Notes under the pieces: model-generated | Told to the model about the DNA's origin: nothing | The model's input: the letters and a program-made list of their open reading frames with translations, nothing else | The model's database searches: none | DNA from: a virus | DNA length: 44,452 nt | IMG/VR virus record: IMGVR_UViG_3300034198_013730 | Span: 1-44,452 of that record | Strand: one strand, 5' to 3' | Translations under genes and position numbers: made by a program | Shown here: positions 4,801 through 39,608 of the stretch, piece by piece | Layout of the letters: each line of letters starts with the position of its first letter | How positions within the stretch are numbered: position 1 is the first letter of the stretch

Positions 4801-6829
4801 GTCTAACCCTGTCAGAAGTTCCTTCGCTGATGGTTCCGGCAGTGTGGAATCAGGCGTACATGATACTTTCGGTCATGCGGGTATCGGTAGAGGTTTTGAT
4901 AGACATGGCGAATGGGCTAACCCATTAGCAGTAATTACAATGCTTGATAATCCAATATTTGACGACTTCACCCCTGACGAAAAAGAAGCCGTTAAGAGAA
5001 GCGTGCTTACTAGATTTGCGATGTCACGTATTGAACAAACTTATGGCACTGGTTTCGGTGATAAATACGATGAAGACATGGATGGAGGACAGTGGAACAA
5101 CTGGATTTACGGATACACGGGTGACATTCAAACTGTCATTGACATGCTTGACGACTCCGACAGAACACAGGTACTTAACAATGATGGTTCACCAATTAGT
5201 GGATTGCGTTCAGGTAAACCATTAAACGGTGTAACTAGAACAGATGTACAAGCAGTTGCTAAACAAGACGCCATACATACGCATGGTCTTGCCTCCGAAA
5301 AAACAGCAATAGAAGTAATTGACGCTCTAGTAAAAGACCCATCTCTGTATGATTTGGCTCCCGAAAAAATACCTGAAGTCATATTTAAGTTGGCAGGCGG
5401 AGACCCTGAACTATTCAGTCGCTTGCGCAATAGAAATGTAACACCACAAGGCATGTGGACAGAAGAAAGAATAAGAGAACTCGTTAATCAGATTCGCATA
5501 GAGCCATCACCGGATGGCATATTCACCATGATTGCTCCACCGGTTCCAGAATTTCAAAAGATTATTGGCTTTGATGGAGACTTCTCTCATGTGAGAATTC
5601 CATCTTCTGAAGCAAGAATCAGAATGTATCAATCCATTCTAGACAACTTGAGAGAGCCAAAACCCGGACTGGGATACACGGATTATTCCGAAACATTCGG
5701 AGAAAAACTAAGTGACGCCGCTGATTCCTTATTAATACCTCGTAGCGCATATAGAAACTTGCGTGAATCTCTTGGCGCAGAGTACACCCCAGGAGGCCCT
5801 ATGGACTCATTTGACACCCTGTACGAGAGGTTCTTAAGGGTTCCATCTGATGCGATGATGCTTGAGGAGCAAGACCAGGGTTCCTTTATACAGGTCATGC
5901 ATGACATTATTGGTCATCTTGGAACGGGTCGTGGGTTTGACAGACACGGAGAGTGGGCAAACTTTTTAGCAATGGTTCATACGAGTCAAAACATTTATGC
6001 AGACAATCCTGAATATAAGGACGCTCTTCCTTTTGATTTATTTCGTAGAATCATGATAATGCAACTTAGGACTTGGGAACAGGCTGATGAGATGCGAGGA
6101 ATCTCAACAGCAAAAGAGGCTTTAGGACTGTTGGAAAAAATACATAAAGCATCTGACAACATGACCATAGACGTGGAAACAATGAGGCAAATCCTACAAC
6201 TGGACAACCCTGACACTTATAGCCCTGTTCAAAACAAATCCCTACTTCAAGAGCCCCCTAAAACGAGAGCGACTGCGTATATACATTCGCTCATAGACAA
6301 CAACATCACGGAGACACGCAAGGCACACTCCTCGTTCGTAGGATACATCAGAGGAAAACCAATAAAACAGCCTGATACCAAGACCCTCCCATGGGTAGAT
6401 ATATCGATTAAGTCATTTGTTCATAGTGCCCCTAAGCACGTGAACCTTTCATTCACTAAACCACAACTACATAGCAAACTGTACAAAGAAGTACTTAATG
6501 GGACTGACGGTGGACCTGCAGGTACATGGACAGCCAAAAAAGCGCTACTGTTAACACGCAAGTATGAAGAACAGGGCGGCTCCTATAGAGGTGGCGTTCG
6601 CAAGATGGAGAGGTCTCTACGGAGGTGGACACGTGAAACTACGACAGGTAAAATTCGTAACGGCAATCTTCGGAGGTATCTCCCTGCTGATGCTTGGAGC
6701 CGGCGCACACTATCGCCTCCAAAAAGCACGGGCTCTAGAACAAGCATCGGACATAATGGAAACAATCCAAAGACTTCAGCGAGCAGGGCTCGCACGACAG
6801 GAAGAAACGTCAGAAGTTATAGAAGGTAG
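1871..6829 (+). CDS. Giant multidomain protein with duplicated metal-binding modules, 1652 aa
   Basis: The start is taken as ATG 1871 with AGGA upstream; GTG 1853 or ATG 1880 are possible. Near residues 48-58 is a Ca-loop-like DGDGDGKVQD. Two zincin-like modules follow: HEFGH at about residue 260 with FAEAV downstream, and HEWGH at about 646 with FAESF. Then come two modules built on HD-x3-GH...GRGFDRHGEWAN, at about residues 997 and 1344. Each pair shares flanking sequence, so both are tandem duplications. The C-terminus (GGPAGTW..KALLL..YEEQGGSY..RYLPADAW) resembles a basic DUF5872-like module of actinophage proteins. Probably virion-associated and possibly injected; function inferred only. 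Confidence 0.85.
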   Translation: MVSMPFTYDIDPAVSSRRQRRSVTPLDQDIKALDNDEVKGIGASIANVSFDPKAFDGDGDGKVQDNTSFERPTVPFVMNSHTGLMSVSGDYSASSYKDMTVEQMVEHAVPDSPEKFVKALLDMRTTSDIKTDTGTFLQGFDKALREGLGTSEAFDFSPEAIKSVRVALGNALRDHPAFAEAVRDFGLPPIVRMQPGMMESDEAGGYEWMYHFMMFNPPALEEGGMYAHVKNFSNEVRRGIGAKGTTRKLIGVDTASTFTHEFGHYVNDMAAHHLTERSGNDLAMVYANLAWGDMQDARPWISDPDALHLVDSDIEKVIKKGKETPDGLPFINSQYGQSSPAEMFAEAVNAVLSSDKNNNESINATLKAHVMKVLGKDYATYHVSPEKEERIPFGLKSEGPRVPTGEGNVHMPATMISNVFDVIREGDTDVQMEHRDIFGGHRPTSIDWLKDASDEEIATLVTPMSAMDHAVMIIQQSHIHDFDTLSKAQINSEIATILRYLVGEHSEYSVRSGIDYEAREQAREEVINALKNKPFAWYVRTYGFPPITIVTPESEKRARESSLGPLMDNLSGVDDNGEKVGYVGAWFSQLGGELTTGIVINRTHHQVGKEAQEGDIGHRHAFSTSDGKISNIVNNVSMSRESTIRHEWGHYLYWRLTRHSSDETLNALGVDKEKAQEQRDYLRKLYDINKGMSLGPPNVTRDFWGQSANGMYNPSVFEQLRNQGFPIVNSVYGQHNPQENFAESFAAFTSEYPRVRSYFLDRNIRNIMAQVTGIDTDIVDDKGKPSHDKPWERNVSGLASRSATIMGKDFGQISKELELTDKEVSIAEDELTHNMDEVTSGELAKRPIHSAIEKDKKRLLDSIRVEVDDDGIPMMMADPNPLMFQFIPDKRDWSKVRVPKRATVKAAAKHIKENQSEAIFNDEDTKQSLFGRNYERLEERFSNRLIGLVESLTEGAPKEDIGDSVGSGWLSLYLSGLSNPVRSSFADGSGSVESGVHDTFGHAGIGRGFDRHGEWANPLAVITMLDNPIFDDFTPDEKEAVKRSVLTRFAMSRIEQTYGTGFGDKYDEDMDGGQWNNWIYGYTGDIQTVIDMLDDSDRTQVLNNDGSPISGLRSGKPLNGVTRTDVQAVAKQDAIHTHGLASEKTAIEVIDALVKDPSLYDLAPEKIPEVIFKLAGGDPELFSRLRNRNVTPQGMWTEERIRELVNQIRIEPSPDGIFTMIAPPVPEFQKIIGFDGDFSHVRIPSSEARIRMYQSILDNLREPKPGLGYTDYSETFGEKLSDAADSLLIPRSAYRNLRESLGAEYTPGGPMDSFDTLYERFLRVPSDAMMLEEQDQGSFIQVMHDIIGHLGTGRGFDRHGEWANFLAMVHTSQNIYADNPEYKDALPFDLFRRIMIMQLRTWEQADEMRGISTAKEALGLLEKIHKASDNMTIDVETMRQILQLDNPDTYSPVQNKSLLQEPPKTRATAYIHSLIDNNITETRKAHSSFVGYIRGKPIKQPDTKTLPWVDISIKSFVHSAPKHVNLSFTKPQLHSKLYKEVLNGTDGGPAGTWTAKKALLLTRKYEEQGGSYRGGVRKMERSLRRWTRETTTGKIRNGNLRRYLPADAWSRRTLSPPKSTGSRTSIGHNGNNPKTSASRARTTGRNVRSYRR

Positions 6830-6857
6830 TCACCACTTGCCAATAGGGCAAGACTGA
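6633..6857 (+). CDS. 74-aa membrane protein overlapping the giant gene in another frame
   Basis: GTG at 6633 has a very good ribosome site (GGAGGTGGACAC). The product has one hydrophobic helix (FVTAIFGGISLLMLGAGA) followed by a charged coiled-coil-like tail. It overlaps the last 197 bases of the giant gene in a different frame and the last 28 bases of the convergent zinc gene. Both readings look protein-like, so this is either a true overlapping gene or the sign of a frameshift in the giant gene's 3' end. Confidence 0.5.
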   Translation: MKLRQVKFVTAIFGGISLLMLGAGAHYRLQKARALEQASDIMETIQRLQRAGLARQEETSEVIEGSHHLPIGQD

Positions 6858-7006
6858 GATTTTACCTTCACCTTTAATTGAAGGAAGCATCCACACTCTT
6901 TACACTGTTTAGTAGGTGAAAAGAAATGCTCACATTCAGTACAGATTAAGTACCTCTGAGATGGGGGCGTCTCCCACTCTTCTTGCTTCTTCTTAAAGAT
7001 TGTCAT
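6830..7006 (-). CDS. Zinc-ribbon protein, DUF6171-like, 58 aa
   Basis: Contains C-x2-C at residues 22-25, C-x2-C-x-C at 35-40 and a CPIGKW end, the layout of small phage DUF6171-type zinc proteins. ATG at 7006 overlaps the upstream stop as TAATG, so it is translationally coupled to the RHH gene. Its stop abuts the giant gene's stop. Likely a structural zinc module; partner unknown. Confidence 0.8.
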   Translation of the reverse strand: MTIFKKKQEEWETPPSQRYLICTECEHFFSPTKQCKECGCFLQLKVKVKSQSCPIGKW

Positions 7007-7371
7007 TAGCCACGAAGTCTATTGCCACACGCTAAGCAGAATTCTGCCCACGGGTAGTAGCGACGTTGATTAATAGGATGATTACAGTCAAGAACGTTTG
7101 CAGCAGCATCGTTTAGAACCTTACGCATGAACTCAGACACGCTTACACCACGGGCTTCTGCTGCTTGCCTCCACCGGTCTTTGTCATGTTCTGTCGCACG
7201 AATAAGTACCTGCTTATCTGCAGGTCCACCATCAGGACTAATGGCAGTTGGTACAGCCATGTCTTTAAGCGTGGTTTCAGCCTCGTTGATAATGGCAGCC
7301 TTTAGGTTGTCCTGTGGGTGATGGACAATTGAATCTGCCCTGTTATTCACTTCTACTTCGTTATTCTGCAT
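7006..7371 (-). CDS. RHH-like DNA-binding protein with C-terminal zinc motif, 121 aa
   Basis: The middle section (KQVLIRATEHDKDRWRQAA followed by GVSVSEFMRKVL) is a ribbon-helix-helix pattern: one strand and two helices. The last 30 residues hold C-x-H...C-x2-C, a possible zinc site. The start is placed at ATG 7371, where GAGGA is well spaced; ATG 7383 would overlap the HTH gene. Probably a repressor or DNA-architecture protein. A similar RHH plus zinc arrangement occurs at 38932. Confidence 0.8.
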   Translation of the reverse strand: MQNNEVEVNNRADSIVHHPQDNLKAAIINEAETTLKDMAVPTAISPDGGPADKQVLIRATEHDKDRWRQAAEARGVSVSEFMRKVLNDAAANVLDCNHPINQRRYYPWAEFCLACGNRLRG

Positions 7372-9705: not shown

Positions 9706-10037
9706 TTATTACCTAATACCAATCCATTAGCATTACGCAGTCCTATGCCACTGAAGTTAATCCGACCATCACGAGAAAGAAATATGTTTTTACGTGAGCG
9801 CAGATGTGCTCGTTGTTCTTCATCAAGGCCACCCCATATACCCCACGGTTCGTGACGTAACGAGTATTCCAAACACTCGACCTTTGACTTGCAGCAGTTG
9901 CATATCTCTACTGCTTTTTTAACATTCAGTTTTACAGCGGCCAGTTCGTTTTTCTGTAATCCATAATAAGTGGGAAACCACCAATCAACTGGGTTCCCCT
10001 TGCAGTCACCATCTTCAGGTGCAAATTCTCCAGCCAC
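9702..10037 (-). CDS. WhiB-family Fe-S transcription factor, 111 aa
   Basis: Four cluster-ligand cysteines (C12, C46, C49, C55) and the GIWGG turn (66-70) identify a Wbl protein, a family restricted to actinobacteria and their phages. Wbl proteins bind a 4Fe-4S cluster and the primary sigma factor to change promoter choice. A basic RSRK segment follows the turn. It sits in front of the primase; a second WhiB lies at 39270. Confidence 0.92.
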   Translation of the reverse strand: MAGEFAPEDGDCKGNPVDWWFPTYYGLQKNELAAVKLNVKKAVEICNCCKSKVECLEYSLRHEPWGIWGGLDEEQRAHLRSRKNIFLSRDGRINFSGIGLRNANGLVLGNK

Positions 10038-16452: not shown

Positions 16453-18375
16453 TCAAGAAGTAGTGACGGTGGCGGAAAGCAGACTCATAATAAGAGAACC
16501 AACATTTGCTTCTTCGTCTTCAGTCCCGTCAACAGCCTGATTGACCACTCCACGCTTTCGTTCAATTAAAGAGTAGATTTCCTCATCAATCGTTCCAGCA
16601 CACAGCATGTATGTTGCTGTGACAGAGGATTTCTGCCCCAATCTATGGCACCTACTATAAGTTTGGTCTACATCAGCAGGTGTCCACGGAAGTTCCACAA
16701 ATAACACATCTTGTGCTACCTGCAGGTTATGCCCAGTTTTGGCGGCTTGAATGCTGAGCACTATGCACGGGGCCTCGATGGCCGACGCCGTCATGAAGAT
16801 ACGTTTTTGTTCTTCAATGTCCGCTATATCCATGCCTCCTTGAATTCGCAAATTACCAAATTTTTTAGCCAGTTCATCAACAACATCACGATGATGCGCT
16901 GCGATGACAACTTTCTTCCCTGCGTCTATTCGGGACTGGACCCACTCCTCAACAGCGGGCATCTTTGCTTTTGCACTCAAACGGCGAAGGACAGAAAGAC
17001 GAACGAGGTGTTGGTTTGATTCGGCTTTGATGCGAGCAATCACAGCAGCGGAGTTGGGTGACTGTCCAAGTTCTAAAGCAATGTCCTTTGCCCTCTGCAC
17101 TAAGTACTCAACAATATCTTTTTCTGCTTTTTTGTACTCACGTAGGCCGGCGGCAGTCCCGTCGACAACTACCGGGTCATGCCTAATTGGAGGAAGGTCT
17201 GTAAGAACTTGCTCCTTAGTGCGCCTTATGTAACAGGTGGAACGCAATCTCTCGTTTAATTCATCAAGATGCGAGTGACCTTCAAGATGCCATTGCCCCC
17301 ATCTATCTTTGAACGCAGCGCAGTACCTTCTGTAGAAACCCCATTCACCACCGAACTTGTCCAACTGACCAATGATTTTAAGTTGGCTTGCATACTCTGC
17401 TGGTCTATTTGTTACGGGTGTTCCAGTCAGACAAAGAACCAATCCTTCTGGCGGGGCGGTCTTAGCAATCTTCACGGCACTCTTCGTTCGCTGAGCGGTT
17501 GGGGTCTTGCAGTAATGAGATTCATCAAAAACATACGAGCGATGATTTGACAACTGCTTCTCCCATGTAGTAAGGTTTGGATATCCAACAACAACTACGT
17601 CGTAGTCTGTCGGGAACTCTTTGCGGTCTGTTACTACAGCAACTTTTCTATTTGGTAGCCATCTATTGTATTCGGCTTTCCAGTTAAGAATGAGAGTCGC
17701 TGGACATACGACAACTGCTGGGTAAGAGTCGTGAACATACTCTATTGTTGCAATCGCCTGCAATGTTTTCCCTAATCCCATTTCATCGGCTATGAATGTG
17801 CGCCGTGCGTTGGAAGCATAAGCAACACCAGCCCTCTGGTACGGAAGCATCGTGCCGGTTAGTCCCGCCACTTCTATGTCGGCATCCACCATGCGTGACG
17901 CATCTTTGAGTTCACTAAGAGAATCTTGCACTTTTGACGAGTAGGCAATAACCTCTGCATCTATCTTCTGTTTGAAGGTTTCCCCCCACTTAACAACTTC
18001 TTCAATGGACGTTGTCGGGGCTCTCCAAGCCTTGGAATTTGCGTGCCATGTTATCCCTGCTATTTGTTTCACCGAGCGAACACGAACTGGGTCGTAGTCA
18101 AATGCAAGATATATCCAGTTGCCTTTGATATATATGCCGCTTGTGTCTGAGTTCTTATGTTTTGGCAGGGTGAAAACCATTACTTCTGGGGAAATACTGA
18201 AGTTGTGATTGCCGGCAAAGTCCCGCGCTTCATCAAGCGAAGTCATCGGGAGTCTCCAAATGCGACCAACCTTGTCCCATTTTGCACCTTTAATGCGTTT
18301 TATCTCTGCAACCTGCTCTGCGTCGTACGGAAAGTCAAATACGAGGTGGTCGTCATCAAGATAAAGGTGTGTCAT
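16453..18375 (-). CDS. SMARCAL1-like SNF2 helicase with two HARP-like repeats, 640 aa
   Basis: Residues 5-62 and 84-138 are two similar modules (hydrophobic strand, D-Y/F-D, IK-x2-GA/GI-x-W, W-R-P/A-P) that resemble HARP domains. A full SNF2 motor follows: DEMGLGKT (197-204), DESH (284-287), LTGTPVTN, and motif VI SRCHRLGQ near the end. HARP-SNF2 proteins anneal or remodel ssDNA-dsDNA junctions, so fork repair during phage replication is likely. Its last codons (SATVTTS) run through a copy of the 13-bp repeat. Confidence 0.87.
   Translation of the reverse strand: MTHLYLDDDHLVFDFPYDAEQVAEIKRIKGAKWDKVGRIWRLPMTSLDEARDFAGNHNFSISPEVMVFTLPKHKNSDTSGIYIKGNWIYLAFDYDPVRVRSVKQIAGITWHANSKAWRAPTTSIEEVVKWGETFKQKIDAEVIAYSSKVQDSLSELKDASRMVDADIEVAGLTGTMLPYQRAGVAYASNARRTFIADEMGLGKTLQAIATIEYVHDSYPAVVVCPATLILNWKAEYNRWLPNRKVAVVTDRKEFPTDYDVVVVGYPNLTTWEKQLSNHRSYVFDESHYCKTPTAQRTKSAVKIAKTAPPEGLVLCLTGTPVTNRPAEYASQLKIIGQLDKFGGEWGFYRRYCAAFKDRWGQWHLEGHSHLDELNERLRSTCYIRRTKEQVLTDLPPIRHDPVVVDGTAAGLREYKKAEKDIVEYLVQRAKDIALELGQSPNSAAVIARIKAESNQHLVRLSVLRRLSAKAKMPAVEEWVQSRIDAGKKVVIAAHHRDVVDELAKKFGNLRIQGGMDIADIEEQKRIFMTASAIEAPCIVLSIQAAKTGHNLQVAQDVLFVELPWTPADVDQTYSRCHRLGQKSSVTATYMLCAGTIDEEIYSLIERKRGVVNQAVDGTEDEEANVGSLIMSLLSATVTTS
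16465..16477 (+). repeat. GACGGTGGCGGAA repeat, copy A
   Basis: First of 11 copies, all on the plus strand, preceded by TTTCAAG. It overlaps the 3' end of the helicase gene. Confidence 0.7.
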
Positions 18376-24032: not shown

Positions 24033-24045
24033 CCTGCCCAAATCG

Positions 24046-26323: not shown

Positions 26324-26536
26324 TTAGTCGTACATGAAGTCGTCGTCGGGATGCGGGGCTCGTTCGGTCCACATATCCTCTCCTGCAACTAGAGAAAGGC
26401 TGGAACCATCGTCCCATGCTACGTCTATCAAATCACCCCAAGGGTCTTTACGTCTGCCACGTAGGACGCCCCGGGAACCTCTCTTAAGTTTCGTGTACGG
26501 GTCGGTCGTGTGGACCAGTTCGATAATCGTGGTCAC
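26324..26536 (-). CDS. DUF4314-like protein, 70 aa
   Basis: The pattern IELVHTTDPYTKLKRGSRG...DVAWDDGSSLSL matches DUF4314, a small beta-barrel-like domain common in actinobacteria and phages. GTG 26536 overlaps the upstream stop and has GAGGAGG in front. Function of the family is not known. Confidence 0.85.
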   Translation of the reverse strand: MTTIIELVHTTDPYTKLKRGSRGVLRGRRKDPWGDLIDVAWDDGSSLSLVAGEDMWTERAPHPDDDFMYD

Positions 26537-26766
26537 TGTGCCTCCTCTACTTCCCACATCCTGCGCCGTTCATCTTTGAGGGCGTCAATCGCAGCCTGTC
26601 TCTGAACTAGTGGGGTCAGGGCTTGCGCTATGCAAGAAGTGAGGTGACCGTCAAGTCCGTTCTCTTCTGCCAGTTTCACTACTTGGAGAAAGTCTTTCCA
26701 CAAGTAGTGGAGCGCATTCGTCTTTTCGTCTATGTGTTGGTCAATGTATCTTAGGTGATTACTCAT
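26533..26766 (-). CDS. Hypothetical helical protein, 77 aa
   Basis: Helical throughout (LHYLWKDFLQVVKLAEENG, ALTPLVQRQAAIDALKDERRRMWEVEEA). Leaderless: ATG 6 nt after TACAGT. Coupled to the DUF4314 gene by a GTGA overlap. Confidence 0.78.
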   Translation of the reverse strand: MSNHLRYIDQHIDEKTNALHYLWKDFLQVVKLAEENGLDGHLTSCIAQALTPLVQRQAAIDALKDERRRMWEVEEAQ

Positions 26767-26772
26767 GACATC

Positions 26773-26801
26773 ACTGTATAGGCTATAGGGGTTAACGACA
26801 A
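26773..26801 (-). promoter_or_regulatory. ATAGCC-family promoter
   Basis: TTGTCG, 17-bp spacer with TATAGCC, TACAGT. The parS site begins 25 bp upstream. Confidence 0.88.
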
Positions 26802-26825: not shown

Positions 26826-26841
26826 TGTTTCACGTGAAACA
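26826..26841. promoter_or_regulatory. parS: parS site (ParB binding site), exact consensus
   Basis: TGTTTCACGTGAAACA is the exact 16-bp palindromic consensus of bacterial chromosomal parS. ParB binds it, loads as a CTP-dependent clamp and spreads. No ParA or ParB gene was recognised in the window, so host ParB is the expected ligand. Intergenic, upstream of the 26766 promoter. Confidence 0.85.
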
Positions 26842-26976: not shown

Positions 26977-27132
26977 CTAACGGAGCCCTTCCGTCTTGTT
27001 CCTGTCTTTACCGCATACATAACAATGGTCGTTTCGCCATGCGTGTGTGCAGTCAATTTCATTTTTCAACAGGTCACTCCAGTCATGTCTGCCGATGTAC
27101 ACGCCGAGAATGAACCAGTAGATGAACCACAT
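26977..27132 (-). CDS. 51-aa membrane protein with Cys motif
   Basis: N-terminal membrane helix (MWFIYWFILGVYIG), then CTHAW and HCYVCGK, a zinc-like set on the soluble side. ATG overlaps the previous stop (TAATG) with GGAGACAA upstream. Function unknown. Confidence 0.75.
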   Translation of the reverse strand: MWFIYWFILGVYIGRHDWSDLLKNEIDCTHAWRNDHCYVCGKDRNKTEGLR

Positions 27133-30187: not shown

Positions 30188-30514
30188 ATGGCATTGGTAG
30201 ATACACCTAAGACCGACAAAACTAAATATGCACTTGCACCCGATGGCAAGATTGACTACGAAATCTACAAAGGATTGACTGGTACTATCGAAGAGACGGG
30301 ACTGTTTGTTGATGTGCGCATCCTTGATACTCGTCGTCGTTACGGACATCTTGACTTTCTGTGCGTCCCTGTTTCTGGACATGGTGAGCGCTGGACGGAA
30401 TTCAAGAATGTAACACTTCATGATGACCCTGCAGCGGGACCTCCGACACACATCGCCGATACTTACGCAAAGAAATTTGTTACTCACTGGAGCGAAACTA
30501 AGTCAATCCTGTAG
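30188..30514 (+). CDS. Hypothetical beta-rich protein, 108 aa
   Basis: AAAAAGGAAAAA precedes the ATG. Beta-rich middle (TGLFVDVRILDTRRRYGHLDF) with DDPAAGPP and a helical end. Family not recognised. Single-gene unit with its own promoter. Confidence 0.77.
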   Translation: MALVDTPKTDKTKYALAPDGKIDYEIYKGLTGTIEETGLFVDVRILDTRRRYGHLDFLCVPVSGHGERWTEFKNVTLHDDPAAGPPTHIADTYAKKFVTHWSETKSIL

Positions 30515-39273: not shown

Positions 39274-39608
39274 GTGTAGTTCCATAACTGGCTAAGTGTC
39301 GGTCTAGTAGGCTTGACCTTCCTACGTCTTTGTTCAGCCGCCAGTTGTCTTGAAGTCAACCCTGCCCAAACCCCATGCATATCTGCAGGTGGAAACTCTA
39401 GTGCATATTCCAAACAGTGATTCCTTACTGGGCACGACTTACATATAGACCTCGCCTCTGCGATGTACGTAATGTCCTTATGTTCTTTGGGGAACATTAG
39501 TTGGGTTCTACCTTTGCATGCAGCGTGGTCAAACCAGTCCTTTTTGGGTATATCTAGTATCCCATCTAGTTGGGTAACTTTTTTCTGGGTATTGTTATTA
39601 GGAGCCAT
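39270..39608 (-). CDS. Second WhiB-family Fe-S regulator, 112 aa
   Basis: Cluster cysteines C31, C56, C59 and C65 and the GVWAGL turn (79-84) place it in the Wbl family; a basic RRRK tail follows, as in DNA-contacting Wbl proteins. AAAGG precedes ATG 39608. It is unlike the first WhiB in length and tail, so the two may act on different promoters. Confidence 0.92.
   Translation of the reverse strand: MAPNNNTQKKVTQLDGILDIPKKDWFDHAACKGRTQLMFPKEHKDITYIAEARSICKSCPVRNHCLEYALEFPPADMHGVWAGLTSRQLAAEQRRRKVKPTRPTLSQLWNYT

Follow-up and report, generated by a model that had tools for sequence, protein, structure and literature searches.

The 44,452-bp stretch of phage DNA analysed here (the window) carries an exact chromosomal-type parS site, and comparison with relatives shows that this site is kept by selection, beyond what chance or conservation of the flanking DNA would give. 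The phages concerned infect Actinomycetota and appear to encode no parS-reading ParB of their own. To the reading that these are genuine, selected parS sites onto which host ParB loads, with a benefit in placement, retention or partition of phage DNA, we give about even chances; both the binding of the window copy by host ParB and its benefit to the phage are what we infer from sequence comparison.

An exact parS site between phage genes

The window is a 44-kb viral record that encodes a helicase, a primase/helicase and a thymidylate synthase (Table 1). Its parS, TGTTTCACGTGAAACA, fits the 16-bp palindrome that defines chromosomal sites, TGTTYCACGTGRAACA, and is the sole match at up to three mismatches across all 44,452 bases. 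The original prediction, which had been made from the letters of the window, called this a canonical and exact ParB site, and a motif scan bears that out. It had also held a perfect 16-mer to be improbable by chance in 44 kb, in agreement with the roughly 2e-5 copies expected (2.6e-5, 2.3e-5 and 0.9e-5 under Markov models of orders 1, 2 and 3). Identity as a Noc binding site (NBS) was considered and rejected, as the palindrome does not fit the NBS consensus TATTTCCCGGGAAATA (PMC7383237). The site is intergenic, with the start of a 77-aa ORF on one side and minus-strand genes from about position 26977 on the other.

Among the 2.9 million viral contigs of IMG/VR, the background against which an exact match has to be judged, parS occurs in at least 120 stretches and a scrambled palindrome of equal composition in 33. 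A single exact match in one contig is for that reason no proof by itself, and conservation in relatives is therefore the real test.

Table 1 Features of the window (positions in the 44,452-bp stretch)
Feature	Position	Strand	Basis and remarks
Exact chromosomal-type parS, TGTTTCACGTGAAACA	26826..26841		Sequence match; conserved in relatives
Second palindrome, TTAGGTATACCTAA	26843..26856		1 bp from parS
Promoter -35 hexamer, TTGTCG	26796..26801	-	24 bp downstream of parS on the minus strand
Probable -10 hexamer, TACAGT	26773..26778	-	17-bp spacer, spacing as in L122; putative assignment
77-aa ORF of no known family	26533..26766	-	ORF list, family search; downstream of parS and promoter
Phage DNA helicase	16453..18375	-	Homology search; query for relatives and tree
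WhiB-like protein	9801..10013	-	Profile match; actinobacterial phage marker
Second WhiB-like protein	39345..39536	-	Profile match

The site is kept while its flanks change

In IMG/VR, 372 relatives of the window's helicase were found, on contigs of up to 151 kb. One of them, the sister-clade genome G021 (148,355 bp), has direct end repeats and is therefore taken as complete. A search for further parS copies among relatives, which the original prediction had proposed, found a parS-like site (two mismatches or fewer) in 18 of 50 records. In a tree built from the helicase, almost all members of the window's own clade (clade A, 12 lineages) have a site, sites also occur in two related sub-clades, and the outgroups have none; this distribution takes at least four changes of state.

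We then took a census of palindromes, scoring every possible palindrome of 16 bp by the number of lineages that have it with one mismatch or none. In clade A, parS came first, with 11 of the 12 lineages, followed by one of its own variants (4 of 12); the next unrelated palindrome, GTTAGGCATGCCTAAC, which is the neighbour of parS, reached 3 of 12. Thirteen sites at one mismatch or fewer were observed in clade A versus 0.0096 expected, and clade-A variants differ from parS at no more than one of the four central positions. In the sister clade (five lineages) the leading palindrome was TGTTCCACGTGGAACA, found in three; the complete genome G021 has three exact copies of parS and one variant within 16 kb. 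Neither form was found in the 13 lineages (244 kb) of the outgroup clade.

Between the window and its nearest relative, L122, a 33-bp block of palindrome plus parS is 97% identical, whereas identity over the 60 bp on either side of it falls to 60% and the genes downstream bear no relation to each other. The position of parS relative to the helicase is not syntenic, and gene order around the site is fluid. The original prediction had named loss of the site from relatives with conserved flanks as the finding that would count against it; what we see is the opposite, a site kept while its flanks change. Lineages L124/L125 and L151 (with the 119-kb record G024), which lie inside parS clades, had no site in the sequence examined, and parS is therefore dispensable.

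A second palindrome and an early promoter adjoin parS

The second palindrome of the window recurs in relatives of the clade: as TTAGGYRYRCCTAA it abuts parS at a spacing of 0–1 bp in L122, L126, L129, L134, L136 and L139. It is operator-like. The promoter near the window parS consists of GGTTGTCAT followed by a -10-like hexamer, a type repeated across the region: promoter-like sequences of the family GGTTGTCATTNNNNCTAATAGCCNATANNNT lie in the small-gene region of the window at 24034, 24706, 26028, 26316, 26803 and 29087 on the minus strand and at 30514 and 33132 on the plus strand.

In relatives, parS is likewise found upstream of promoter-like sequence, mostly 0–34 bp off and typically just 5′ of an early promoter. 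The gene 3′ of parS is homologous in eight lineages (gene X) and absent from that place in the window and L122; no gene uniquely linked to parS was found, the downstream genes varying among the lineages compared, the window's included. At G021 position 130456 and L135 position 4249, parS or a one-mismatch copy falls within the first codons of small genes, where it encodes NVSRET or NVSHET. Outside the window's family, matches to the composite of palindrome plus parS are mostly due to chance. An odd exception is L290, a contig of 65% GC with no match to the window's family, which has TTAGGCGCGCCTAA directly beside TGTTTCACGGGAAACA (positions ~922–952), a composite that reflects either chance or convergence.

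Chromosomes of the host group carry the same two forms

WhiB was found in 22 of 22 records of the phage family. Because it is, to our knowledge, restricted to Actinomycetota and the phages that infect them, the host is an actinomycete. G021 encodes a large terminase and a contractile-tail sheath, the latter closest to sheaths of Gordonia, Arthrobacter, Streptomyces and Brevibacterium phages. Host assignment through metagenome-assembled genomes (MAGs) with a related helicase was rejected, the bins being discordant (Oxalobacteraceae, Actinomycetota, archaeal and gammaproteobacterial). Because of this inconsistency, the host phylum rests on WhiB and on tail-sheath kinship with Gordonia, Arthrobacter and Streptomyces phages. 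A GC content of mostly 42–48%, together with MAG L260, makes a low-GC freshwater group of Actinomycetota a plausible host. A tyrosine integrase (PF00589) was not found in 17 records, from which we infer that the window's phages are virulent. No cultured phage matched 24.5 kb of the window by megablast.

In Actinomycetota, chromosomes have TGTTTCACGTGAAACA, TGTTCCACGTGGAACA and mixtures of the two, in some cases next to each other, and TGTTTCAC and TGTTCCAC are the two half-sites that occur naturally in chromosomes; the TGTTCCAC form is listed for Pseudomonas and Myxococcus in a review (PMC7022226). The phage sequence is thus one that chromosomes of the host group use as parS, the host being known to phylum. 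The phages follow the same two-form alternation as the chromosomes, which speaks for ParB as the reader and against a phage operator. In the candidate host order, that of a freshwater Actinomycetota MAG with a related helicase, most matching genomes have one or two parS sites, ~600 bp apart where there are two, so that the one to four copies of a phage equal or exceed the host's own number. Sites in this order vary mostly at the outer positions, in contrast to the central four bases in clade A, a difference that counts against reading of the phage site by host ParB.

No HTH-ParB found in the phages

Profile searches of the window found neither ParB (PF17762, PF02195) nor ParA (PF13614), and for the window the original statement that neither gene is present holds. 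HTH-ParB (PF17762) exceeded the cut-off in none of 34 records, namely the window and 33 relatives with the complete 148-kb G021 among them; a parABS cassette, with its own HTH ParB next to the site, was accordingly seen in none of the 34. For the relatives the statement needs amending, since they include phages with a ParB_N-only protein and, in part of the sister clade, with a ParA-like ATPase.

The former is a protein of ~265 aa that nearly complete relatives encode near a PAPS reductase and the terminase; in L231, the ParB_N-only protein (6486–7292, minus strand) and the PAPS reductase (4957–6096, minus strand) lie in the terminase region. Its match to Noc/ParB is limited to the N-terminal domain (residues 14–137), and the protein has a conserved C-terminal end of its own and occurs equally in parS-less relatives, for which reasons it is not a likely reader of parS. 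The AlphaFold model has low confidence beyond residue 80 (pLDDT 58) and was used only alongside the sequence match. The protein's place beside PAPS reductase perhaps points to a role in DNA modification, and, because it exists, a phage contribution to reading the site is conceivable.

The ParA-like ATPase exceeded the cut-off in G026 and scored weakly in G021 and G022; none was found in the window or clade A. These P-loop proteins of 193–198 aa, from two sister-clade lineages (G026; G021/G022), have the deviant form of Walker A motif that is typical of ParA. Small orphan ParA-like ATPases (KGGxGxTT) of parS-bearing sister-clade phages are encoded at L266:1192–1773 (minus strand) and L268:1474–2070 (plus strand), and in G021 the ParA-like gene lies 2.3 kb from a parS. 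Taken together, the conserved site, the absence of HTH-ParB from 34 records and the sequence shared with host-group chromosomes lend support to the original suggestion that a phage without its own ParB may use that of the host.

Host-type parS sites in other cultured phages

Searching 50,697 records of cultured phages for exact matches gave TGTTTCACGTGAAACA in 286 records and TGTTCCACGTGGAACA in 58; three control palindromes gave 5 (one Erwinia clade, coding), 0 and 0. Redundancy of records inflates these counts (87 are Listeria), so lineage counts are to be trusted over record counts. The bearers include phages of Gordonia, Arthrobacter, Microbacterium, Clavibacter, Lactobacillus, Bacillus, Roseobacter, Butyrivibrio, Vibrio and Listeria, microviruses and an inovirus. 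It is in Pseudomonas phages that the TGTTCCAC form turns up most often, in agreement with the chromosomal site of Pseudomonas. Phage KoPa-4 of Pseudomonas putida has sites at 61012, 63044 and 66560, and phage Hello of Gordonia terrae 3612 at 70752 and 71173. Most of the sites examined lie in short intergenic gaps.

Among 20 sampled parS-bearing records, none had HTH_ParB over the cut-off and 15 had at least two sites at one mismatch or fewer, up to six each. The unrelated phages MK450435, NC_047924, PP496414, KT870145, MH884508, PQ288046, MZ605293 and others (L326–L346) carry one to four exact host-type parS, mostly intergenic, and no HTH-ParB. The 5.9-kb inovirus bajarodino virus 6 (L332, PQ006149.1) has six exact copies, at 635, 662, 1414, 2857, 4096 and 5628, mostly intergenic; a chronic filamentous phage of this kind would profit from host-driven partition. 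In phages of the Quhwahvirus type, as in Microbacterium phage Quhwah (L343, 1001–1016), the exact parS falls within a gene annotated as a DNA-binding protein.

We lean slightly towards the view that capture of host segregation through a minimal cis site is a widespread and repeatedly evolved strategy in non-sporulating hosts. Tailed and filamentous phages with one to six host-matched parS and no HTH-ParB would have their genomes placed, retained or regulated by host ParB, ParA and SMC.

How the site may act

ParB proteins in general nucleate at parS, spread, and interplay with ParA and SMC. Upon infection, host ParB with CTP would nucleate on the phage parS, and its clamps would slide onto the adjoining phage DNA. 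Host ParA would handle a phage genome marked in this way as cargo, and host SMC would load onto it there. The likeliest gain is that the genome would be placed and retained together with the origin region of the host's nucleoid, and would be partitioned should division precede lysis, as in slow, deferred or carrier infection. A ParB complex beside an early promoter may also dampen that promoter. In Caulobacter, the host machinery segregates parS on a plasmid instead of the chromosome, and viability falls ~1000-fold (PMC5815017); virulent phi29 uses Spo0J, the ParB of B. subtilis, for entry into or entrapment in spores (Meijer 2005, as cited in PMC9437464).

The main rival is control of a promoter by ParB, a real though minority possibility in our estimate. 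The site would then be a host-sensing operator, at which host ParB on parS and a factor on the abutting TTAGG-N4-CCTAA palindrome repress or time an early promoter, with expression following ParB state or copy number. Proximity to promoter-like sequence, mostly 0–34 bp downstream of the site, is equally expected of a regulatory site, the second palindrome abuts parS in clade-A members, and the downstream gene is homologous in eight lineages. There is precedent as well, since a parS placed ahead of a promoter represses it and, in P. aeruginosa, parS3 and parS4 repress adjacent genes (PMC7022226), and Spo0A in phi29 and CtrA in alphaproteobacterial phages are analogues (PMC9437464). However, downstream genes differ among lineages, the window's included, some sites fall within the start of a coding sequence (G021 at 130456), and promoter adjacency is weak evidence for an operator because nearly all free intergenic space of compact genomes is promoter-adjacent.

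A role as a ParB sink, in which replicated phage genomes with one to four sites each draw ParB and SMC off chromosomal parS and disturb host segregation and origin function, strikes us as unlikely. The candidate host order has only one or two sites per genome and extra plasmid parS is strongly toxic in Caulobacter (PMC5815017), but with one site per genome little ParB would be drawn off early in infection, a selected decoy would be expected to form arrays, which were seen only in a few other phages, and the phage has no clear gain. That the site is the operator of a phage-encoded regulator and resembles parS by accident is improbable: clade-A sites do drift in the central four bases, an operator-like palindrome lies adjacent and the phages encode small proteins of no assigned role, yet two clades carry precisely the two natural chromosomal forms, and unrelated phages of many hosts share the 16-mer in host-matched form while controls are nearly absent. 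Chance or host contamination has a very slim probability. The scrambled palindrome in 33 IMG/VR stretches speaks for chance, but only 2e-5 copies are expected in the window, and conservation in relatives already refutes it; against contamination, genes for phage replication proteins and WhiB lie in the window, and those for terminase and tail sheath in its relatives.

Comparison with known systems

Phage use of host ParB is already known from phi29. What is apparently new, as judged from sequence, is a host-type parS without HTH-ParB that is conserved in an actinophage family and convergent across phage groups with host-matched half-sites; a literature search, mostly of papers accessible without subscription, turned up no description of host-type parS in phages other than those of Bacillus. 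Should host ParB load onto the phages described here, a highly conserved bacterial DNA-handling system would also be a common phage resource. The sites would then be a readable predictor of host group and of where phage DNA is placed in the cell, and ParB loading would explain how virulent phages of slow-growing bacteria could persist through division.

With the chromosomal parS of ParABS (consensus TGTTTCACGTGAAACA), the phage sites share the identical palindrome, the same half-site variants and, in G021, clustering within ~16 kb; unlike them, they sit beside early phage promoters, on a carrier with no parA or parS-reading parB in the window sequence. Phi29 and its relatives are virulent phages that use host ParB, as the window's probably virulent phage would: the window has a host-type parS, a tyrosine integrase and an own HTH-ParB were not found, and the phi29 relative B103 has two parS-type sites and likewise no HTH-ParB. 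They differ in that phi29 uses host ParB for spore entry, whereas sporulation is not known in the candidate hosts here; the phage type is unrelated, and the site here is intergenic. The parABS cassettes of extrachromosomal actinobacteriophage prophages likewise place a parS-type centromere on an actinophage, but with their own ParA and ParB, whereas HTH-ParB and tyrosine integrase were not found here and ParA-like proteins only in some sister-clade phages. Phage sites for CtrA and LexA, finally, also recruit a host DNA-binding protein to phage promoter regions; those proteins are classical transcription factors, whereas the reader proposed here is a segregation CTPase.
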